In this document: positions 3,836 to 32,608 of the stretch, piece by piece | How positions within the stretch are numbered: position 1 is the stretch's first letter | Layout: each line of letters starts with the position of its first letter | Assembly: GCA_030603445.1 (NCBI GenBank) | Contig: JAUVXU010000001.1 | Location: 1 to 43,923, forward strand | Reading direction: 5' to 3' | Length of the DNA stretch: 43,923 nt | Source: Methanomicrobia archaeon | GTDB taxonomy: Archaea > Methanobacteriota_B > Thermococci > Methanofastidiosales > NM3 | Translations under genes and position numbers: made by a program | Notes under the pieces: model-generated | What the model was told of the DNA's origin: nothing | The model's input: only the letters and a program-made list of their open reading frames with translations | The model's database searches: none

Positions 3836-5539
3836 TTAATCACCCTCTCTTTTAGTTGGCGGTAGCTTAGTAATAACCACAGGGGTTTTGTCTACTGCAT
3901 ATCCCGTCCCCCCATGCGATATTATGATATTTACAAGCCATGACGCGTCATCGCGTTTAGGGTGGTCGCTTCTGTAGTGGGCGCCACGCGACTCCTTTCG
4001 TTCAAGTGCACTTATGATGACTGCCTCAGACACCATGAGCATGTTTTGTATATCTATGCTGTCATGCCATTCTGGATTGTATCGTTTGCTTCCCGATACT
4101 GCCACAGGCATCTTGGCCAAGGCCCTAATCTCCTCAAGCCCCTTTAAAAGCAACTTCTCGTCCCGAACTATGCCGGCATATTTCCACATTATCTCCCCTA
4201 TCTTCGTTTTTATGTGCTGTGGTTTTGTGCCTTCTATTCCAAACGGCGCCTCAAGACGGGCAATCTCGCGTTCTATTGCATCAGGTGCGGGGTCTGGGGA
4301 TGCAAGCATACGGCTTTGCAGACCTGCCGCCGTACCTGCCAGCTTTCCAAATACCTGTGTCTCTGCAAGAGCATTTCCTCCAAGGCGATTAGCACCATGC
4401 ACGCCTCCTGCAACCTCACCGCAAGCGTAAAGACATGCTACCTCAAAACTCTCGCATTTAATTGGATCAACACGCAGCCCCCCCATGAAATGGTGCGCTG
4501 TCGGTGCCACTTCCATAGATTCTTTAGTAATATCAACATTAGCAAACATCTTAAACTGCTTGACCATCTTTGGGATCTTCTCAATTATGACGCTCTCATC
4601 TTTGTGGCTTATATCAAGATATACGCCGCCATTTGATGTCCCTCTTCCTGCCTGTATCTCCATATAGATGGCACGCGCCGTCTGGTCTCGGGGGGAGAGC
4701 TCCATCTGGCGCGGGTTGTAGTCTTTCATGAATCTTTTTTTAAGTGTGTTTAGCAAATACCCTCCCTCGCCACGTACTGCCTCTGTGACAAGTATGCCTT
4801 TTGCAGAGGGAGGAAATACCATTCCTGTTGGATGGAACTGGGTCTGCTCCATGTCTTGAAGAGACGCCCCAATTCTCAGGGCCATCGCATATCCGTCGCC
4901 TGTCGCCTCTTGAGGATTGCTAGTTATCTTAAAAACACGCCCAGCACCGCCTGTTGCTAAAATCACCGTCTTGGCAATGAACTGGATATAATCCCCTGTC
5001 TTCATATCGATGCCAAATGCACCTGCGATGCGACGAGAATTCCTCGCGTCCGGAAGCAGTGCTGTCACTGATATATCAGACATATAGCGAATGCCAAGGC
5101 GTCGCGCCTCCTGCACTAGAGTCATGATAAGCTCATGGCCTGTTGTGTCGCCAACATAACATGTCCTTGGATGGGACTGTCCGCCAAATGGGCGCTGTGC
5201 TATATTGCCATTTGAATCCCTATCAAAGAGCGACCCGTAGCGCTCAAGGTCATGCACGCAGTCTATGACATCACGTACCAGCACTTCGGCCATGGCCTGA
5301 TTATTAAGAAATACACCCTCATCCACCGTATCCTTGAAATGCTCTTCCCACGAATCTGTTGGATCCCTAAAAGCCAAAGCAGCGTTGATGCCACCTTCTG
5401 CCATTACAGTATGCGCCTTTCCTTCCAGCGTCTTTGCAATCACCAGCACATCGGCTCCAAGTTCTCTAGCAGCTATTGCTGCACGTGCTCCGGCGCCACC
5501 GCTCCCTATCACTAATACGTCGCAATCAATGACCTTCAT
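3836..5539 (-). CDS. tfrA: CoM/CoB (thiol):fumarate reductase flavoprotein subunit A
   Basis: This 567-residue succinate dehydrogenase/fumarate reductase-type flavoprotein has the N-terminal FAD Rossmann motif GSGGAGARAA and AEGGINAA, the active-site segments QFHPTG and APTAHHFMGG, and the C-terminal ANRLGGNALAE. It reduces fumarate to succinate. Pairing with the HdrB-containing tfrB, rather than with a membrane-anchored iron-sulfur subunit, points to the soluble thiol:fumarate reductase of methanogens. The ATG at 5539 is chosen; an in-frame TTG at 5548 overlaps the fumarase beta stop. It is fourth from the operon end, five bases after the fumarase beta gene, whose product supplies its substrate. 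Confidence 0.93.
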   Translation of the reverse strand: MKVIDCDVLVIGSGGAGARAAIAARELGADVLVIAKTLEGKAHTVMAEGGINAALAFRDPTDSWEEHFKDTVDEGVFLNNQAMAEVLVRDVIDCVHDLERYGSLFDRDSNGNIAQRPFGGQSHPRTCYVGDTTGHELIMTLVQEARRLGIRYMSDISVTALLPDARNSRRIAGAFGIDMKTGDYIQFIAKTVILATGGAGRVFKITSNPQEATGDGYAMALRIGASLQDMEQTQFHPTGMVFPPSAKGILVTEAVRGEGGYLLNTLKKRFMKDYNPRQMELSPRDQTARAIYMEIQAGRGTSNGGVYLDISHKDESVIIEKIPKMVKQFKMFANVDITKESMEVAPTAHHFMGGLRVDPIKCESFEVACLYACGEVAGGVHGANRLGGNALAETQVFGKLAGTAAGLQSRMLASPDPAPDAIEREIARLEAPFGIEGTKPQHIKTKIGEIMWKYAGIVRDEKLLLKGLEEIRALAKMPVAVSGSKRYNPEWHDSIDIQNMLMVSEAVIISALERKESRGAHYRSDHPKRDDASWLVNIIISHGGTGYAVDKTPVVITKLPPTKREGD

Positions 5540-5544
5540 CGTAA

Positions 5545-6138
5545 TCAAATTCCCATTTTTTTCTTAATATGGGGTAACATTTCGTGCACGTGTTCTTCAA
5601 CTTTTTTGTACAACGAGTCTCCGTTTGTGTCAATAGCCACAGTAAGCGGGCCGAAATGGTCCGCCTCTAGCACCCATACTGCTTCTGGCATTCCAAGATC
5701 AAGCCAATGTACGCCCTTGACCTCCTTGATGCCTTTGGCAGCAAGTACGGCTGCGCCGCCTGTTATTGCCAGGTATACACACCCATACTCCTTCATTGTG
5801 TCTATGGTGGGTTGGGACATTCCCCCCTTGCCTATGATGGCACGCACCTCAAATCTTTTTATGAGTTCTGGTTCAAGGCCGTTCATGCGCGAGCTTGTTG
5901 TGGGGCCTGCTGCCACAAGCTCCCATAATCCTTCTTTTTCCCTCATTATCGGGCCGCAATGAAAAATGGAGCTTCCGGTAAGATCAAATGGCAGAATTTG
6001 CCCCCTTGTATCATGTTCTAGTGCGCGCATATGCGCTTCATCTCTAGCCGTGTATATGGTGCCTGAAAGCTCTATAATATCTCCTGTCTTTAGACCTCTC
6101 ACATCCTCGTTAGATAATGGCAATGTAAAATGCTTCAT
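5545..6138 (-). CDS. class I fumarase, beta (C-terminal) subunit
   Basis: The 197-residue protein matches the C-terminal domain of iron-sulfur (class I) fumarases and tartrate dehydratases. It starts KHFTLPLS, then LKTGDIIELSGTIYTARDEAH, FHCGPIM, GPTTSSRM and IGKGGM. With the alpha subunit it hydrates fumarate to malate reversibly. The ATG overlaps the alpha-subunit stop by four bases (ATGA), indicating coupled translation and a two-subunit enzyme, as usual in archaea. Fumarase and tartrate dehydratase cannot be separated by sequence alone, but the adjacent fumarate reductase and malic enzyme genes support fumarase. Confidence 0.93.
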   Translation of the reverse strand: MKHFTLPLSNEDVRGLKTGDIIELSGTIYTARDEAHMRALEHDTRGQILPFDLTGSSIFHCGPIMREKEGLWELVAAGPTTSSRMNGLEPELIKRFEVRAIIGKGGMSQPTIDTMKEYGCVYLAITGGAAVLAAKGIKEVKGVHWLDLGMPEAVWVLEADHFGPLTVAIDTNGDSLYKKVEEHVHEMLPHIKKKMGI

Positions 6139-7398: not shown

Positions 7399-8523
7399 AT
7401 GACTATTAGTAAAAATAAGAGGATATATTCTTTGATCTGTATATTTGTAATATTTGGAACGCTTGTATCTGGCTGTATCACCTCTGGTGATAATGTAGAT
7501 GAATCTCCAGAACCAGAAAAATATATCGATATTGTAGATATGCAGGGCAGAACTATTACAATACCCGATACTATCGAAAGGTTTGTAGCAATTGAAGCAG
7601 GCGCACTTAGATATGCTGTTTATTGTGGTGGGTCATCAAAAATAGTTGGAATTGAGGAGATCGAATTCCCTGATGACACAGGCGCCGTCTCTCCCAAACC
7701 GTATAGTTATGCACACCCGGAATTTAGCTCACTTCCCTCTATAGGCCCCATACATGGTGGAGACAGCGAGCTTATAGCAACAGTGGAACCAGACGTGATA
7801 TTTTGGACATATTGCACTGCTGAGGACGCAAACGCACTCCAGGATCAGACTGGAATCCCAGTCATCGCTATTGTTTATGGGAACATCACTGACCAATGGG
7901 ACACTATGAAAGATGCTTTGCGCCTGTATGGCAAAGTCCTCGATACAGAGAATAGGGTGGAAGAACTCATAAGCTACATCGAGTCCCTGGTCAATGACCT
8001 GAACTCCCGTACTGCTGATATAGATGAAAACGATCACCCCTCAGTCTATGTAGGAGGAGTTGCACATAGAGGCCCCCATTCCATAGATTCTACTACTCCA
8101 ATGTACGAGCCATTCATATTCTTAAATGCAAACAATGTGGCAGCATATCTGGAAGGAGGATCACAAATCATTGATAAGGAAAAACTTTTGGATTGGGACC
8201 CCGATTATATCTTTTTGGATGAGAGCAGTTATAATATAAATGTGTGGGGGGACATCAACAGCGGCCTTTATGACAACATGACTGCGATACAGAATCAGGA
8301 TATTTATGGTGTCATGCCTTATAATTGGTATACGGCCAATTGGGCGACAATATTCGTAGATGCATACTATATCGGTACTGTGATCTATCCTGAAGAATTC
8401 TCAGACATTGATATCGAACAAAAGGCAGACGAAATATATGAGATGTTCGTAGGAGCTCCGGTATATTCTGATATGCTATCCTATTACGAGGGACTTATGC
8501 ACCTTTCCCACCATCTTGAATAA
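7399..8523 (+). CDS. metal-chelate ABC transporter substrate-binding lipoprotein (BtuF/FecB type), probably nickel
   Basis: The 374-residue protein has a signal peptide with lipobox VSGC (Cys26), so it should be anchored to the outer face of the membrane. The periplasmic-binding-protein fold of the BtuF/FecB class is visible: a start segment DMQGRTITIPDTIERFVAIE, then IATVEPDVIFW and LLDWDPDYIFLD. AAGGAGG precedes the ATG at 7399. It opens a 15-gene operon whose product needs nickel, so a nickel ion or nickel chelate is the favoured ligand. The C-terminus holds a histidine cluster (HLSHHLE) that could contribute to metal binding. Cobalt, cobamide or iron chelates are alternatives, since this class has mixed substrates. 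Confidence 0.85.
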   Translation: MTISKNKRIYSLICIFVIFGTLVSGCITSGDNVDESPEPEKYIDIVDMQGRTITIPDTIERFVAIEAGALRYAVYCGGSSKIVGIEEIEFPDDTGAVSPKPYSYAHPEFSSLPSIGPIHGGDSELIATVEPDVIFWTYCTAEDANALQDQTGIPVIAIVYGNITDQWDTMKDALRLYGKVLDTENRVEELISYIESLVNDLNSRTADIDENDHPSVYVGGVAHRGPHSIDSTTPMYEPFIFLNANNVAAYLEGGSQIIDKEKLLDWDPDYIFLDESSYNINVWGDINSGLYDNMTAIQNQDIYGVMPYNWYTANWATIFVDAYYIGTVIYPEEFSDIDIEQKADEIYEMFVGAPVYSDMLSYYEGLMHLSHHLE

Positions 8524-24227: not shown

Positions 24228-24346
24228 TCATCCCTCTATCACCTCTTGATTCATTCTAGAGTTAACTTCTTAACTTTATAACTATAATCCTGGCTTTTTA
24301 ACACTTTTTTGCATATGTTTTGCCATATTAATTTGTTAAAAAATAG

Positions 24347-24371
24347 ATAAGAAAAAAAGAAAGAAGAAAAA
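24347..24371 (-). terminator. T-rich terminator after the beta-helix gene
   Basis: On the minus strand the bases just after the stop at 24373 are almost pure pyrimidine with long T runs, the usual form of an archaeal terminator. Confidence 0.5.
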
Positions 24372-24372
24372 G

Positions 24373-26601
24373 TTACTTGGAAACACATCCACAACCGAGT
24401 GCCTCGCTGATCTTTTCCATTATCTTAATAGCCTTCAACAGCTCGCCGTTTGAATAGATCGGATTTGAAAGAGATGCTGCGTTTGCCATGTGCATTTGCA
24501 TCTGTTCAAGCATTGCTTGAATGTCTTCCGGGACTTCTTCAGGTAGGTTTTCTGAGATGCAGGCAAACAATGTATTGGCCTGGTTTAAGTGATAAGTCGC
24601 CAGTGGCATATATATTGCAAATAGATTTATGTTTGGATTACCAACCCCAGCAAAAGCTGTACCTTCTAAGTCGCCTAAGCTTGGTGTTGTTGTATCATCT
24701 ATTATCGCCCATATGTAGTTCTCTGTAGTATTAACGCCAGAATTTGAGCATTGTATCCACTCTGCTCCGTTCCACCCTGTACATCCTGCCCCACAATCTG
24801 GCCCCTCACCCCATAATAGTCTTAATGAAGACTCATTGAAGCCCACAATCTCGGCATCTGTATAGTACAGTCGTATTTCAATTTCTGTAACATTTGTCGT
24901 ATCTGGAACGTAGACATCGACATATTTGCCAATATCCCCTGCGAAACCGCCGCCGGGGTTATCAGAGTATTTAGTCACAGTCACCGTAGCACTTCCTGCT
25001 AATTCTACCTCAGTATCTGCTTCATCTTTGGCGTCTACTGTATCGTCTGTAACTGTTTCTGTTTTTGAATCTTCAATGGGGGCACCAAGCCATGGACAAT
25101 AATCTACATTGACACTGACCGCATCTCCAGAACCTGGTCCTTCGTCAGATGGCCCAGAAGCATCGCCCCACCAGTTGTTGGTGGCGTCAAGAACTGTAGC
25201 ATCCTCATTCCATATGCCATACTCGGTGTTGTCATAAATGTTGTTGAAGTGGACGGTGGTAATGGCGTTACAAGAAGTGATGCCCCATTTTGAGCCCGTT
25301 ATAGTGTTATTGGTAATGGTTTGAGTAGGGGGTGTCGAAGAGCCGCAGTCCCAAGTTGCAATCCCTTCTTCAACATTATCCGTGAACGTATTCCCGGTAA
25401 TTGTAACAGTGATTGATGCATCCCCCCACGGGTATGTGCCGATACCCGCCTCTGTCCAGCCCGATATCTCATTGCCGGTGACAGTAGCGTCAATTGTGCC
25501 GCCACCGCCAAAAAATTCAATGCCACAATAAGGCCCGTCGCTAATTAAGTCATTGTTCTCTATGGTGACGGCTATCGTAGCGCCAGCATTCAGCGGAGCA
25601 ACTGATATGCCAGCGACATTATAAGGCCATGTTACTCCATTAAGACCGGCACTGCTTATGGTGTTATTGCTTATGGTCACTGTATACGAGCCGGCGTCAT
25701 AAGGTTGAACTGCTATCCCTTTCTGACAATCGGTAATTGTATTACCCGAAACAATGGCATCCGAGCTAGAGACAAGAAGCCCCGCAGCCACCCAACCATC
25801 AGGATCGTAAACCACATTTGACACCACATTACCAGTCATATTACCTGTAGCGCCGAAGCCAATCTGTATACAATTTTGTATAGTATCTATGGGGCCTGCG
25901 CCAGTAACCGTATTATCGTGGATATTAGCTGTAAGCCCTGCGAAATTGCAGGTAATCCCGTTCTTATAAAACGATGTACCTATATCGCAGTTCTTAATCT
26001 CCACCGCTACTGTTTCCTCGAAGGCAGACGCGTAGATACAATCACCGACGTCGTATGTGTTTGAATCACCGGTAAATGTGATGTTGTCAATAATGCCAGC
26101 CACCCCCTGGTAGAGGATGCCCACATTCTTATTTCCACTGCCCCAACTGCCGACTTGTGAGCTGTCAATTTTAAGATCTTTGATGGTAACACTATTGGGA
26201 GCCCCCACATTAACGGTAGCCACCACGATAGCATTGGTAGGACTAGATTCAGTTCCGCTTACCTTCTTGCGGTTGTACGTTTGGGTTATCGCTGTTGGCT
26301 GGATGATAGTGGCGTCACCCACGCCTTGAAGCGTCAGGCTCTTGTTGATAATCACCTGCTCATTATACGTCCCCGCAGCCACGTTGATGGTGTCGCCAGC
26401 AACGACTCTACTGTCATTAATGGCATACTGAATTGTTTTGAAGGCGCCAGTGCCAGTACTGGTGCCGTGACTCGCATCATCAGTGCCACTTGGGTCAACA
26501 TAGTAGATACTGGCTGCCTCCACCGTTCCTATCATTGGCACTATCGCTAACAAAGACATCAAAAATAACATTGATATTATTAAACTTTTCATTTTTTTCA
26601 T
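24373..26601 (-). CDS. secreted right-handed beta-helix surface protein with novel C-terminal domain
   Basis: The 742-residue protein begins with a signal peptide ending near GTVEA. AAGGAG lies 9 bases before the ATG. Residues about 30-490 are a NosD/pectate-lyase-like parallel beta-helix made of repeated turns with the ITNNTI/VSGNTI pattern. The start, IYYVDPSGTDDASHGTS and FKTIQYAI, is typical of DUF1565-like surface proteins. A linker rich in Asp and Glu follows. A beta domain comes next (about 520-655, with KYVDVYVPDTTNVTEIEIR and YTDAEI). Last is a helical C-terminal domain of about 72 residues with LSNPIY and a final CGC. That domain is shared with the small secreted protein at 32225. 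It probably sits on the cell surface; ligand or polysaccharide activity is unknown. Confidence 0.8.
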   Translation of the reverse strand: MKKMKSLIISMLFLMSLLAIVPMIGTVEAASIYYVDPSGTDDASHGTSTGTGAFKTIQYAINDSRVVAGDTINVAAGTYNEQVIINKSLTLQGVGDATIIQPTAITQTYNRKKVSGTESSPTNAIVVATVNVGAPNSVTIKDLKIDSSQVGSWGSGNKNVGILYQGVAGIIDNITFTGDSNTYDVGDCIYASAFEETVAVEIKNCDIGTSFYKNGITCNFAGLTANIHDNTVTGAGPIDTIQNCIQIGFGATGNMTGNVVSNVVYDPDGWVAAGLLVSSSDAIVSGNTITDCQKGIAVQPYDAGSYTVTISNNTISSAGLNGVTWPYNVAGISVAPLNAGATIAVTIENNDLISDGPYCGIEFFGGGGTIDATVTGNEISGWTEAGIGTYPWGDASITVTITGNTFTDNVEEGIATWDCGSSTPPTQTITNNTITGSKWGITSCNAITTVHFNNIYDNTEYGIWNEDATVLDATNNWWGDASGPSDEGPGSGDAVSVNVDYCPWLGAPIEDSKTETVTDDTVDAKDEADTEVELAGSATVTVTKYSDNPGGGFAGDIGKYVDVYVPDTTNVTEIEIRLYYTDAEIVGFNESSLRLLWGEGPDCGAGCTGWNGAEWIQCSNSGVNTTENYIWAIIDDTTTPSLGDLEGTAFAGVGNPNINLFAIYMPLATYHLNQANTLFACISENLPEEVPEDIQAMLEQMQMHMANAASLSNPIYSNGELLKAIKIMEKISEALGCGCVSK

Positions 26602-26790
26602 ATCAAATATCTCCTTGTTTTTGAATTTGTATTACGGGGATTATGAATAACTTCTTTTTTCCCAATAACTCCCATAGTACTGTCTCTTTTCTCACAATCT
26701 GTGCTTTCGCACTGAGTGTATTGCCCTTTTTGGGGCACTGCGCTTGCTTGAAAAACTGGCTTACAGTACCGCGGTCGACACTTCTCCTGC

Positions 26791-26967
26791 CTAGAAAGAC
26801 CTACCAAGCATGCGGGAGCTAATCATGACTATTGGGTCGATGTTTGGTCTGCTGTCCTTGGAAGATTTGTTGTTGTAAAGGCCTGACACGATCTTCTTGA
26901 ACGGATACCAGTTGATAAGATCGTCGGCTTGGGAGAGTTTGTTACCAAGAGCAACTGCGATTTGGTA
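26791..26967 (-). pseudogene. decayed transposase fragment (IS5/IS1182-like N-terminus)
   Basis: The minus strand between 26967 and the TAG at 26791 reads as a 58-residue stretch with DDLINWYPFKKIVSGLYNN and RPNIDPIVMI. This follows the layout of the N-terminal region of IS5/IS1182-type DDE transposases (a W-x-P-x-x-x-I core, then a GxRPxxDPxxM motif). It has no start codon, and coding sense is lost after the TAG. No terminal repeats were found. The family match is by pattern only. Confidence 0.45.
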
Positions 26968-27086
26968 TTACTGCTTGATAATGCACGTTTCAAATGCTGC
27001 CATGTAAACCAAAGTTTATAAGATTAATCGAGGTATAGAGAGTTAATCAATTCTTTATATTATTTTGTTGATAAATGTTTTGGCAA

Positions 27087-27116: not shown

Positions 27117-27270
27117 ATTTCGTTTCTAATGGTATTGCTCATCAAAATTATATAAATCTTTCGGCAGAATTGATTATCTTATTTTATCGCGTCCTTTACA
27201 ATTCTGACTTACTTAATCCCATAATTAACTTTCTCATTTTGTATTTACAATATTGGCTTTTTTCATCCCC

Positions 27271-28350
27271 CTATTCACTGGACTGTCCCTTAGACAGTTC
27301 TGGAAAGACCTGAAAGATCCTTTTGACAAGCTTTTCGCACCCATACTTCAAGGCATCTGTCGTTGGAAGTTGGAACCTTTCTTCATACTCGGTTATGGTT
27401 TCTTTGATCTCCTTGTCCGCCATATCTTCATGATTGAGTGTAATGGCAATTACCTTTGACCTTGAAAAGACCTCTAATAGCTCTATCTCGCTTTCTAGGG
27501 TCGGCATTGGTATATAAGGGAAATCTCCGATGTTCTTTCTTTTTGGAGGGTGCTGAACTATGATTGCTTGTGGTCTTGCACCCCGTATAATGGCGCATGA
27601 ACTAATATATGCCGGATGGCTCAATGCGCCCTGGCCTTCAACTATGATTATGTCCGGATGTTCCGTATCATATGCCTCCATAACCGCGTTTTCCATCTCC
27701 CCTGTCATGAATTCCTCGACAATAGCATCTATTGCAATACCATACTTTGCGCCTTGAATCAATCCTGTCTGGCCAGTTGCCACAAACGCAACGTTCAAGC
27801 CTTCCTTTTTCAATGCTTTTGCAAGTAGTACGGAAGTAGTTCTCTTTCCAACTGCTCCGTCTGTGCCAAGTACTGTCACTATTGGAATATTTACTTTAAG
27901 AATACGCCCGGAGAAGAGATGAAGATCCTTTTTTGCCGGAGGCTTTCTAATGTCGTATATCTTAACGCCATATTCCTCTGCCTTTCGCATAAACTCTTCA
28001 TCATCGGTAAAGAACTCATGGAGGCCGTTCACTATATTCATGCCCTTTTCTATAGCCTCAAACACTATCTTTCGCTGTTCCTTTGTAAGAAACGCCTCAA
28101 GGGGCGCAATACCATATATGAAACATTCTGGAAGATAGCCTAACCTTTCGATAGCATCATTGAGGTCATGGAATATTGGTATCCCGTTTTTTATTCCATC
28201 AAGATATTCCCCGGCATCCATGCCCACTTTTGAGCTGTCAATAATACCGGCTATCTCATACTTTTCCGAGTGTCTGACAAGTCCATTCGCGATCTTCCCG
28301 TCCATCTTCCCGAATTGATTGTCACAATACACTATTGCCTTTAATTTCAT
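27271..28350 (-). CDS. DUF1611 family protein (DgcN-type P-loop protein)
   Basis: The 359-residue protein has an N-terminal Rossmann-like DUF1611 domain (residues about 1-150, starting KAIVYCDNQFGKMDGK). Its C-terminal P-loop domain carries GTDGAVGKRTT near residue 165, then IIIVEGQGALSHPAY and IPMPTLESEI, the family hallmarks. A characterised bacterial member, DgcN, has been described as a D-glutamate N-acetyltransferase-type enzyme; whether this archaeal protein does the same is not shown. On the same strand, upstream of the racemase gene but separated by the beta-helix gene and a transposase remnant. The ATG start has no overlapping neighbour. Confidence 0.85.
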   Translation of the reverse strand: MKLKAIVYCDNQFGKMDGKIANGLVRHSEKYEIAGIIDSSKVGMDAGEYLDGIKNGIPIFHDLNDAIERLGYLPECFIYGIAPLEAFLTKEQRKIVFEAIEKGMNIVNGLHEFFTDDEEFMRKAEEYGVKIYDIRKPPAKKDLHLFSGRILKVNIPIVTVLGTDGAVGKRTTSVLLAKALKKEGLNVAFVATGQTGLIQGAKYGIAIDAIVEEFMTGEMENAVMEAYDTEHPDIIIVEGQGALSHPAYISSCAIIRGARPQAIIVQHPPKRKNIGDFPYIPMPTLESEIELLEVFSRSKVIAITLNHEDMADKEIKETITEYEERFQLPTTDALKYGCEKLVKRIFQVFPELSKGQSSE

Positions 28351-28684: not shown

Positions 28685-29887
28685 ATGAAATCAAAAACAA
28701 TTCTTGCTATACTAGTAGTAGTCAGCATTGTTGCTGCTGGTTGCATAAATGGAGACGATAGTAACGGGGCAGAAGTGGAACTTGTCTACATGTCTGGTTG
28801 CGGAACTATGCCTTTAACGCTGGCAAACGGCCAGATAGATGCTTACATTGCATGGCAGCCGAATGTTGCTATTGCAGAGGTATCCGGGGTCGGAAAAGTA
28901 ATCACCTATTCAAAAGATCTGCCTCCGGATGGAAAATGGGAAAACCATCCCTGCTGCGTGATAAATGTAACGCAAGGCTTTGCACAAGAACACTACGATG
29001 TTGCAAAATATCTCACGATGGTAATGATTATTGCAAGCGATTATGTTCAGGAAAATCCAGACATAGCTGCACGAGATAGTGCAGAGTGGATATTTGGGGG
29101 AGATGACCTCACCTTTGGAGATACTACGATAAGCTCATACGATGTCGAGGAAGCCTCTATCCCAACGATAAATTTCACAACAACACCAACAGACGGCTGG
29201 GTAGAAGGTATTTTAACCTTTGTAAAATCTGCAGAAGAAATCAATATGGTAACAGACAACTTGAAAGGAAAAACAGATGCCGAGATAAAGAATATTCTCT
29301 TTCATCCAACGCTCTACGATGACGCAATAAATGCCCTGAACTCAAAAGATTATCTTGATGCCCAGGTGAACGTCGATGAAGTGATTGAGGTAGATTTTGG
29401 ATATCTTGCAGCAGATGACCACGATGCAGCGCTTTACGTCGCAGCATACGAATGGGAGTATTTTAGAGACAATTATGGTATCTACTTTAGCCCAATAAAA
29501 CTCGGCCCAAGGGGAACGTACCAACTAGTTGTTAACGAAACTGTCGTTGCTAAAATAAACACATTCGAATTCGCAGGTGGTTCAGCCGAAATGACCGCTG
29601 CAAGTCAAGGAAACATAGATTACGGTCTTGCAGGAGCTCCGCCAGTTATACTCTTTATTGACAAAGGGGCGCCTGTAAATATCATATGCCCCCTCATGAC
29701 AGAAGGTTCAGGCGTAGTGGTCTCAATTGACGCACCCTTTGATGACTGGGACGGATTTATCAAGTGGATAAAAGAGAGCTATGACGAAGGAAAAACGGTA
29801 AAGATAGGAGATCCAATGATAGGCTCAATCCAGGACGTTATGATAAAATACGCGCTTAAAGAAGAAGGCATAACGATAAAAAACTAA
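28685..29887 (+). CDS. NMT1/TauA-type substrate-binding lipoprotein with permuted lobes
   Basis: The 400-residue protein has a lipoprotein signal with AAGC (Cys20). The order of the binding-protein halves is unusual. Residues about 30-225 resemble the second half of nitrate/sulfonate/taurine (NMT1/TauA) binding proteins (LANGQIDAYIAWQPNVA, then GFAQEHYDVAKY). Residues about 240-400 resemble the first half (FGYLAADDHDAALYVA, then SAEMTAASQGNIDYGLAGAPP, KIGDPMIGSIQDVMIKYAL). The protein ends with EEGITIKN, just where the second half would normally continue. A circular permutation, or a tandem duplication with both outer halves lost, would produce this. No permease or ATPase gene is adjacent. 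The Fsr gene follows by 295 bases, so a sulfur compound is a possible ligand, but that is inference. Confidence 0.75.
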   Translation: MKSKTILAILVVVSIVAAGCINGDDSNGAEVELVYMSGCGTMPLTLANGQIDAYIAWQPNVAIAEVSGVGKVITYSKDLPPDGKWENHPCCVINVTQGFAQEHYDVAKYLTMVMIIASDYVQENPDIAARDSAEWIFGGDDLTFGDTTISSYDVEEASIPTINFTTTPTDGWVEGILTFVKSAEEINMVTDNLKGKTDAEIKNILFHPTLYDDAINALNSKDYLDAQVNVDEVIEVDFGYLAADDHDAALYVAAYEWEYFRDNYGIYFSPIKLGPRGTYQLVVNETVVAKINTFEFAGGSAEMTAASQGNIDYGLAGAPPVILFIDKGAPVNIICPLMTEGSGVVVSIDAPFDDWDGFIKWIKESYDEGKTVKIGDPMIGSIQDVMIKYALKEEGITIKN

Positions 29888-30182: not shown

Positions 30183-32099
30183 ATGAAAGAGGAATACAAA
30201 TGGTTTTTGAAAGATGCCGTGGTAGACAAAGAAATGTGCACACTATGCGGTGCTTGCGCTTCTATATGTCCATACGGCATAATAGAGTTTGATGAAAACG
30301 GTCCGAAGCTAAAAGAGGAGTGTTATCGAAATGGCCATGGGGCCTGTAAAGATGTGTGCCATCGTGTAATGACGGACGCATCACGCATAGGACTCAATGT
30401 TTTTAACTTCAAAGCAAAGCCCCCAACTAATACAATCGGCCAATACGAAAAGATAGTTGCAGCGCGTGCAACAGATAAAAAAATCCAAGAACGTGGACAA
30501 GACGGGGGTGCTGTAACAGCACTATTGGCGTACATGTTTGACAAAGGGATAATAGATGGCGCCGCAACGGTAACAGGGATTGCAAAACCTAGTACTGCGC
30601 TCATAACGAACAAGGAGGATCTTTTGTCCTCACAAGGGGCAAAATACTCTACTGTACCAATAATGCAAACTTTGAGAGAATCTGAAAATTTAAAGAAAGT
30701 GGCAATTGTAGGATTGCCATGCCAAACATACGGCGTTAGAAGAACCCAGTTCTTCACTGGCCTAAACGTTCATCCGCCCGAAGTTGGAAAGGATGGTGAG
30801 GAAGCCCACATCCCAAATATCCCATATGTGATAGGATTATTTTGTATGGAGAATTTTAGGGAGGAGCGATTGTCAGCTTACCTTAAAAATGCTGGTGTTG
30901 ACTTAAACAAAGTGAGGAAGTGTTCTATACATCTTGACGAGTTTATTGTCGCAACAGATGGTGAGGACAAAGAGTTCTCTCTAAAGGAGCTCTCTTCCTG
31001 TGTATGGGAAGGCTGTAAGATATGCAGGGACGCCGTCTCAAAAGTAGCAGACATATCCGCTGGTTACTCGGGCTCTTCAAGTGGATGGACGACCTTAATT
31101 GCCAGAAACGCAAAAGGGCTTAAACTCCTTAAAGAAGCAGAAGGAGCAGGGTACATAGAGGCAACTGACGATGTGGATGTTAGCATCATAGAGGATTTCG
31201 CCTCCCTAAAGATGCGACGATTCAATAAGGAGTACAAGCGCCGCATAGGCAAGGGACAAGAGGTAATCGCATATTGGGGACGGGACTTTCCTGGTGTGCG
31301 CCCAGAGTCTGGCGGGACCTTTTTAGTAAAAATTAAAACCAAGTGCGGTCTTGTCGATGCAGACTACATGAAAGAGGTATCCAAACTTGCCAAGGAGTAC
31401 GGCGATGGAACCTTAGAAATAACAACTAGAAAGAGCATAGAAATTCAGGGCGTTAAAGGCGAAAACTTGGATGCCATCATGCAAGGGGTGTATGGCAATG
31501 GGCTCATGACAATAGGAATGGGCTATGCTACTGCATGCCCAGGTATGGCATACTGCCCCGAAGGCCTGGTGCGCACAAAAGAACTGGCAAACGAAATTAC
31601 CATGAAATTCGCCCAACGCAATATGCCTCACAAGATAAAGGTAGCTATTGCAGGATGCCCTAACGGCTGCGTTCGCCCCCGCCGGCATGACATAGGGATC
31701 ATGGGGCGGCAAAGACCAAAAGTCGATACTGAAAAGTGTACAGGATGCGGAAGGTGCAACGAACTTTGCAAAGTAAATGCACTCTTCACTGAAGCAGGCA
31801 AAACTGTTATCAACAGAGACCTTTGCATCAACTGCGGCTGGTGCATTCGCGAATGCCCTCATGAAGCTATGCTTGAGGATAAGTGCGGTTATTCTGTATG
31901 GATTGGCGGAAATGATGGGAGAAGACCCACTGAAGGTGTGTTACTAAAAGAATTTTGCACTGAGGAGGAAATCTTAGGTCTGATGGACAAAATCGACAAG
32001 GTCTTTGTAAAGCACCGGACCCAGCCAGGCAAGCAACGGCTTGGAAACATCCTAGAAGAGATAGGTGTGGGACATTTTCTACATGAATTAGAGGGGTGA
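30183..32099 (+). CDS. fsr: F420-dependent sulfite reductase
   Basis: The 638-residue protein fuses an F420H2-oxidising half to a sulfite reductase half. Residues about 15-75 are a ferredoxin-like region (CTLCGACASICP and further cysteines). About 80-330 are FrhB/FpoF-like with GAKYSTVPI and IVGLPCQTYGVRR. About 355-638 are a dissimilatory-type siroheme sulfite reductase: CPGMAYC (C-x5-C) and GCPNGC (C-x3-C) bind the coupled siroheme/[4Fe-4S] centre. An inserted ferredoxin domain carries CTGCGRC and CINCGWC. Fsr reduces sulfite to sulfide with F420H2 in the cytoplasm, which detoxifies sulfite and feeds sulfur assimilation. AGGCGAGG precedes the ATG. Siroheme would come from the sirohydrochlorin made by the cluster at 16656-22988. 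Confidence 0.95.
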   Translation: MKEEYKWFLKDAVVDKEMCTLCGACASICPYGIIEFDENGPKLKEECYRNGHGACKDVCHRVMTDASRIGLNVFNFKAKPPTNTIGQYEKIVAARATDKKIQERGQDGGAVTALLAYMFDKGIIDGAATVTGIAKPSTALITNKEDLLSSQGAKYSTVPIMQTLRESENLKKVAIVGLPCQTYGVRRTQFFTGLNVHPPEVGKDGEEAHIPNIPYVIGLFCMENFREERLSAYLKNAGVDLNKVRKCSIHLDEFIVATDGEDKEFSLKELSSCVWEGCKICRDAVSKVADISAGYSGSSSGWTTLIARNAKGLKLLKEAEGAGYIEATDDVDVSIIEDFASLKMRRFNKEYKRRIGKGQEVIAYWGRDFPGVRPESGGTFLVKIKTKCGLVDADYMKEVSKLAKEYGDGTLEITTRKSIEIQGVKGENLDAIMQGVYGNGLMTIGMGYATACPGMAYCPEGLVRTKELANEITMKFAQRNMPHKIKVAIAGCPNGCVRPRRHDIGIMGRQRPKVDTEKCTGCGRCNELCKVNALFTEAGKTVINRDLCINCGWCIRECPHEAMLEDKCGYSVWIGGNDGRRPTEGVLLKEFCTEEEILGLMDKIDKVFVKHRTQPGKQRLGNILEEIGVGHFLHELEG

Positions 32100-32224: not shown

Positions 32225-32608
32225 TTAATTAGGGATGCAGTCGCACACTAGCAAATTATTTATCTGGACCATAAGGGCCATTGCCTTATTCAACTGGCCG
32301 CTTGCGTAAATGGGGTTGCTTAGTGAACATGCATTTTCCATGTGAAGCTGCACTTCATCCGCAAGAGGCGCAATCTGTGCAAGCATTGCATCATCCAAAC
32401 CACCCGCTTCAATGGTATCTGTTATACATGCCCAGATGGCATTGTCCTCTCTTAGCTCCGTCGCGACTATTGGCATCATTATTGATGGCCCAATTGTTGA
32501 AGGGTAAGGGGTTTCATACCCATTTTCTTCGTATGCCCCGACTGTGGACATGACCGTAGCAAGAGATATAACCAAAATCAATGAAAAAATTATGCTATTC
32601 TTTTTCAT
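32225..32608 (-). CDS. small secreted protein with LSNPIY/C-x-C C-terminal domain
   Basis: This 127-residue product has an N-terminal signal peptide (KKNSIIFSLILVISLAT, cleavage near VGAYE). A Tyr/Pro-rich spacer follows, then a C-terminal domain of about 75 residues. That domain aligns with the end of the 742-residue beta-helix protein: ACI near its start, HMENACSLSNPIY against HMANAASLSNPIY, then G-x-L-x-KA, and a final CDC against CGC. The ATG at 32608 follows AGGTG by 6 bases; a GTG nine bases upstream is less likely. Function unknown; the shared domain suggests common surface attachment or mutual interaction. Confidence 0.75.
   Translation of the reverse strand: MKKNSIIFSLILVISLATVMSTVGAYEENGYETPYPSTIGPSIMMPIVATELREDNAIWACITDTIEAGGLDDAMLAQIAPLADEVQLHMENACSLSNPIYASGQLNKAMALMVQINNLLVCDCIPN

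Follow-up and report, generated by a model that had tools for sequence, protein, structure and literature searches.

A C-terminal domain shared by unrelated secreted proteins of the archaeal order Methanofastidiosales

A common C-terminus on two otherwise unrelated proteins

Why should a large beta-helix protein and a protein of 127 residues end in the same way? Could a shared C-terminus of this kind tell us how such proteins are held at the cell surface? The question is raised by a 43,923-nucleotide stretch of an archaeal genome (the window; contig JAUVXU010000001.1 of assembly GCA_030603445.1). An earlier note, made from the sequence alone, had proposed that two proteins encoded here share an undescribed C-terminal domain, which might be a surface anchor, a sorting signal or a docking pair with disulfide chemistry. 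The features concerned are listed below.

24240–24372, minus strand: non-coding DNA past the stop codon of the 742-aa gene, a piece of the copied 3' cassette (~82% over 150 nt to the DNA after the 728-aa frame of L013)
24373–26601, minus strand: gene (ORF) for the 742-aa secreted protein, with signal peptide, NosD-like/beta-helix passenger and C-terminal domain
24376–24612, minus strand: C-terminal domain of the 742-aa protein, with three predicted helices, the Cys of ACI and the terminal C-x-C
24613–26511, minus strand: passenger of the 742-aa protein, with no relation to the 127-aa protein (alignment, NCBIfam)
26512–26601, minus strand: predicted Sec signal peptide of the 742-aa protein, without lipobox (hydropathy scan; cleavage site by eye)
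32225–32608, minus strand: gene for the 127-aa protein, with signal peptide, linker of ~20 residues and domain, and no passenger
32228–32479, minus strand: domain in the 127-aa protein (alignment, profile match, model)
32534–32608, minus strand: predicted Sec signal peptide of the 127-aa protein, without lipobox (hydropathy scan; cleavage site by eye)

The last ~80 residues of the two proteins are 36% identical, with 63% positives (BLASTP E 1e-18), and their Smith-Waterman score of 150 compares with 25.7 +/- 4.9 across 5000 shuffles (z = 25). By these alignment statistics the homology is real and not compositional. The domain measures ~75–80 residues, and the motifs named in the earlier note (ACI, HM-x-NA-x-SLSNPIY, G-x-L-x-KA and a terminal C-x-C) all occur in both copies. 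Beyond it the two proteins have only an N-terminal signal peptide in common, and the claim that their remainders are unrelated is borne out. The passenger of the 742-aa protein matches NosD_copper_fam in NCBIfam with E 3.5e-8, under the curated cut-off, and the protein has no match in Pfam; the 127-aa gene has an alternative upstream GTG start that would give 130 aa. Neither the window proteins nor 24 diverse family members show a significant match of the domain to Pfam, NCBIfam or all PDB chain sequences, and a literature search found no paper describing it.

AlphaFold2, run with three-sequence alignments, predicts three helices for each window copy (pLDDT 80 and 82, pTM 0.69 and 0.71) and no strand in either, and the domain is thus predicted to be all-helical. 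Its best conserved stretch is the turn between helices 2 and 3. A Foldseek search with the two models gave no significant fold match (best E 0.95 and 0.43), and the predicted fold, a generic three-helix bundle, offers no functional hint. One candidate relation, that of a heme-free offshoot of the multiheme cytochrome bundle of NrfA/MccA (Foldseek probability 0.96–0.99), was rejected for want of a sequence signal: Foldseek E was 0.43–0.97, hhalign probability 0.3–0.8%, the profile score no better than that of shuffles, and the other window model gave different top matches.

The surroundings yielded a few observations of their own. Bases 1–110 of the window are identical to the end of another contig, C45 (L019:3023-3132), which probably joins the window's contig. 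Between 13 and 32 kb the translations, read by eye, resemble a gene run for heme, corrinoid and F430-type biosynthesis, and a sulfite-reductase-like gene, likewise read by eye, lies at 30183–32099.

Distribution, carriers and copying

How widely is the domain distributed? A search profile built from 24 sequences gave 76 matches in 16 of the 21 genomes of the order Methanofastidiosales and no match in the remaining 94 genomes of the class. The 375 genomes searched outside the order were likewise without a match, and among 396 relatives from 216 genera only the same 16 genomes match. The window's genome (G000; 1.62 Mb, 96% complete) holds ~11 copies. Most copies belong to two families, f1 and f2, with 1–13 matches per genome; in a third, f3, most genomes with a match carry one divergent copy, and in f4 genomes the domain was not found. 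A narrow peptide pattern did not find it in IMG/VR viral contigs, and a GTDB-wide pattern scan returned one record only, though f2 and f3 copies would escape the pattern used. Among the genomes searched, the domain thus appears lineage-specific and confined to one order of methanogen-related archaea. The domain tree is weakly resolved, with copies grouping by genome more than under shuffled labels (34 changes, versus a mean of 45.9). As a separate observation, the f4 genomes G019 and G020, which are without the domain, have 11–12 C25 peptidase matches each, and two f4 C25 proteins that were read end soon after the protease domain.

The fetched loci contain 65 full-length copies, 64 of them with a stop codon inside the contig, and in 63 of these 64 the profile match ends no more than 7 residues from the stop. 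In the sole exception, L113 (L113:5400-6758), the domain is internal and the chain runs on into an entire inhibitor domain of the chagasin family (PF09394, E 1e-21). Other genomes of the same family encode domain-bearing C25 cysteine proteases. Judged by a simple hydropathy scan, not SignalP, a strong signal-peptide-like segment is present in 46 of the 53 carriers with an N-terminal region; the remaining seven appear to be fragments or to have broken frames. No carrier matches the lipobox pattern (the frame L118 has a borderline LLGC), and in the 53 neither the domain nor the residues behind it include a membrane-strength segment. Two transport-binding proteins of the window (7399–8523 and 28685–29887), by contrast, have lipobox-like signals by eye. 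The search thus matched no named domain and found many further secreted carriers, nearly all with the domain at the C-terminus, in keeping with the earlier note.

The passengers are unrelated to one another. They include right-handed beta-helices with Chlamydia-type repeats, an SBBP propeller, C25 protease, PKD repeats, a family-5 solute-binding protein, Big_9 with a C-type lectin, choice-of-anchor L and a BamB/PQQ-like propeller. Secreted copies without any passenger occur in two families of the order, namely the 127-aa protein of the window and two small proteins of G003. Two InhA-like metalloprotease frames (L139 and L147) match weakly, with the second half of the profile only.

At the DNA level, a 3' cassette is 78–89% identical between genes of the window's genome whose upstream halves are unrelated. 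In the choice-of-anchor-L gene and the SBBP propeller gene the last ~205 nt, including the first 30–40 nt past the stop, are 89% identical, while identity is at background (57%) over the 300 nt that precede the domain. Similarly, the 150 nt downstream of the 742-aa gene are 82% identical to those of a Chlamydia-repeat beta-helix gene on another contig, with the upstream DNA at background. Two copies in this genome, L015 and L017, are broken.

Two further observations concern the DNA next to carriers. A short intergenic repeat, approximately AAAGCCAGxATTATAxTTATAAAGTxAAGAAGTTAACT, lies beside several carrier genes (window 24280–24330 and 27179–27275; L013:5683-5826; L015:7060-7116) with 81–89% identity, and may be a regulatory site common to these genes or be left over from the copied cassette. 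Upstream of the 742-aa gene, at ~26640–27000, lies an apparent degenerate fragment of an insertion-sequence transposase, judged by eye.

The disulfide chemistry suggested earlier holds in part. Cys17 and the C-terminal Cys occur together in 28 copies, are both absent from 36 and are never found singly (a copy truncated by a contig end was set aside), a coupling that fits one optional staple. It does not define the family, more than half of which is without these cysteines. On the tree each cysteine changes six times; three well-supported independent contrasts agree, which are too few for significance. Other copies have other pairs: columns 14 and 83/84 in f2 (five with both, one with a single cysteine) and the loop columns 26 and 36 in f3 (six with both). 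The terminal C-x-C, present in both window copies, is no family feature, its first Cys (column 93) being found in 12 of 65. The pattern fits optional disulfides of an extracellular domain, and not redox or linkage chemistry central to its function. N-glycosylation of the helix 2–helix 3 turn was also considered, and was set aside as too weak a signal to build on (sequons in 37 of 65 copies, with 30 +/- 3 expected).

The anchor slot and possible roles of the domain

What does the domain do for such different passengers? The 'choice-of-anchor' domains of NCBIfam are named for adjoining one of several alternative C-terminal anchors. All 33 choice_anch_Q matches in the order fall in nine f1 and f2 genomes. 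In 26 of the 33 proteins choice_anch_Q is followed by the new domain, with a gap of 8–15 residues in 24 of these 26. The seven others, a point against anchoring, are without it: four f2 proteins have ends that seem S-layer-like by eye and have no Pfam hit, one ends in a metallophosphoesterase recognised by Pfam, and two in what appears by eye to be the same metallophosphoesterase. Of the two choice_anch_L proteins, one in the window's genome is followed by the domain and the other is cut by the contig end. The domain therefore occupies the anchor slot of choice-of-anchor proteins, and because it does so it would itself be expected to anchor. As an aside, the f2 beta-helix proteins L167, L168, L169 and L170 share, after choice_anch_Q, an undescribed end (IILxLGGPDAYDGIGYIV...), possibly a second type of anchor.

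Because the domain adjoins choice-of-anchor modules, because its carriers have no other recognisable anchor, and because it has been copied between unrelated genes, surface anchor or sorting tag is, of the roles raised by the earlier note, the one to which the evidence points, binding being its conjectural part. Arguing from position and from the missing alternatives, we lean slightly towards a lineage-specific, folded and probably non-covalent cell-surface attachment module. Carriers would be exported via an ordinary Sec signal peptide, read here from sequence, after which their C-terminal ~75 residues would fold into the predicted compact three-helix bundle, stapled from helix 1 to the C-terminus in the ~40% of copies with coupled cysteines by a putative disulfide. 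The uncleaved bundle would then bind a shared envelope component, be it an S-layer protein, a surface glycan or a membrane protein, and so substitute for the lipid anchor, transmembrane tail or sortase signal absent from the carriers. The likeliest site of contact or capping would be the helix 2–helix 3 turn (NA-x-SLSNPIY-x-x-G/N-E-L-x-KA). New passengers would become surface-attached once the 3' cassette, whose copying is seen in the DNA, had been copied onto their genes. Alternatively, carriers could be released from the cell instead of anchored.

Could the domain instead be a sorting signal that is cleaved off? A transpeptidase would recognise the folded domain, remove it and join the passenger to a lipid or glycan, in a type IX-like manner. 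The extreme C-terminal position and the location in the anchor slot agree with this idea, and a candidate enzyme exists in a C25 (gingipain-like) protease that itself bears the most divergent domain copy, one such protease being present in four of the five f1 genomes. The type IX sortase PorU carries a C-terminal domain of its own. However, f2 genomes have up to eight domain copies and no C25 protease, which weakens the case for C25 as the sortase of this tag. An archaeosortase partner was rejected as well, since it does not co-occur with the domain: exosortase/archaeosortase was missed in four of the five f1 genomes (77–91% complete), and PF09721 was found in G000 and G003 and missed in the domain-carrying drafts G015, G016, G017, G018, G001, G002 and G004 (69–92% complete). 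The likeliest cleaving enzymes, in short, do not track the domain. Moreover, in one carrier the domain is followed by an entire chagasin domain, and cleavage of the passenger-free copies would leave almost nothing to attach. We consider a cleaved signal unlikely.

A docking or assembly module is a different proposition, in which domain copies bind to one another or to a scaffold and carriers thereby form complexes, functionally resembling dockerins, and passenger-free copies act as linkers or caps. Such secreted copies do exist in G000 and G003, and a single module common to many unrelated passengers would suit this role, but a scaffold with repeated receptor domains was not seen, and no dockerin or cohesin was matched in Pfam or NCBIfam (at E <= 1, scattered chance matches only). 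Nor is there a conserved neighbour: beside the carriers we found no conserved gene beyond common families (e.g. ABC ATPases) and orthologous neighbourhoods. A neighbouring gene as receptor was rejected likewise, as no carrier-specific family recurs. Docking in general strikes us as quite improbable, and the particular suggestion that the two window proteins form a docking pair finds no support: each carries a copy of one and the same domain, copies without a passenger are found again in a second family, and no conserved partner gene lies nearby.

Finally, might the bundle be a structural cap only, stabilising or protecting an extracellular C-terminus and spread by duplication, with no role in localisation? 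The generic fold, with no PDB fold match of E < 0.4, and the decay of some copies (L015, L017) would suit such a cap. It would leave unexplained why beta-helix, propeller, protease and solute-binding passengers should all have it, as well as its fixed place after choice-of-anchor Q and the passenger-free secreted copies, and we regard it as very improbable.

The attachment module that we favour has a bolder version, tentative and in our view rather doubtful: an undescribed system of surface display, limited to this one archaeal order and equipped with a dedicated receptor or attaching enzyme, would recognise its cargo by the domain as a tag, and the tag would have spread onto new genes as a movable 3' cassette. 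A soluble helical tag on more than 70 secreted proteins within a single archaeal order would represent a different route of surface display, in a group whose cell biology has seen few experiments. Many hypothetical proteins would gain likely surface roles, and the 127-aa protein, having no passenger, would be a handle for finding the envelope component that is bound.

Comparison with known C-terminal tags

The choice-of-anchor modules NF041518 (choice_anch_Q) and NF038133 (choice_anch_L), whose C-terminal anchor slot the new domain fills, are neighbours of the anchor and not the anchor itself; the domain is, to our knowledge, not among the anchors that have been described with such modules. 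As with PGF-CTERM, PEP-CTERM, LPXTG and MYXO-CTERM, one C-terminal tag is found on many unrelated secreted proteins per genome. Most of the processed C-terminal tags known from prokaryotes are short and include a membrane helix. The signals of archaeosortases, exosortases and sortases combine a short motif with a membrane helix and a basic tail (PMC11980579). Unlike PGF-CTERM-type signals, the new domain is a soluble, folded, predicted three-helix domain without motif, membrane helix or basic tail, and its chains stop no more than 7 residues beyond the last helix.

The C-terminal domain of type IX cargo is a beta-sandwich recognised by the outer-membrane machinery of Bacteroidota. It is likewise folded and common to numerous secreted proteins, C25-type proteases and choice-of-anchor proteins among them, whereas the new domain is archaeal, is predicted to be all-helical and has no match in Pfam or NCBIfam. 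Choice-of-anchor J has been found in one putative type IX cargo protein (PMC11982257).

FIMAH (PF22888), too, is a C-terminal domain of ~80 residues on secreted proteins, and the window's genome encodes two FIMAH proteins in other genes, one with a beta-helix passenger. A relation to FIMAH was rejected, as there is no hmmscan match and profile comparison with hhalign gives a probability of 0.2%. A FIMAH-bearing 792-aa beta-helix gene was seen to lie, cassette-like, between 152-bp direct repeats that are 98% identical (L054:2638-2789 and 5503-5654). Shared C-terminal tags are thus a known kind, among which the new domain differs from the processed signals, from the type IX domain and from FIMAH.
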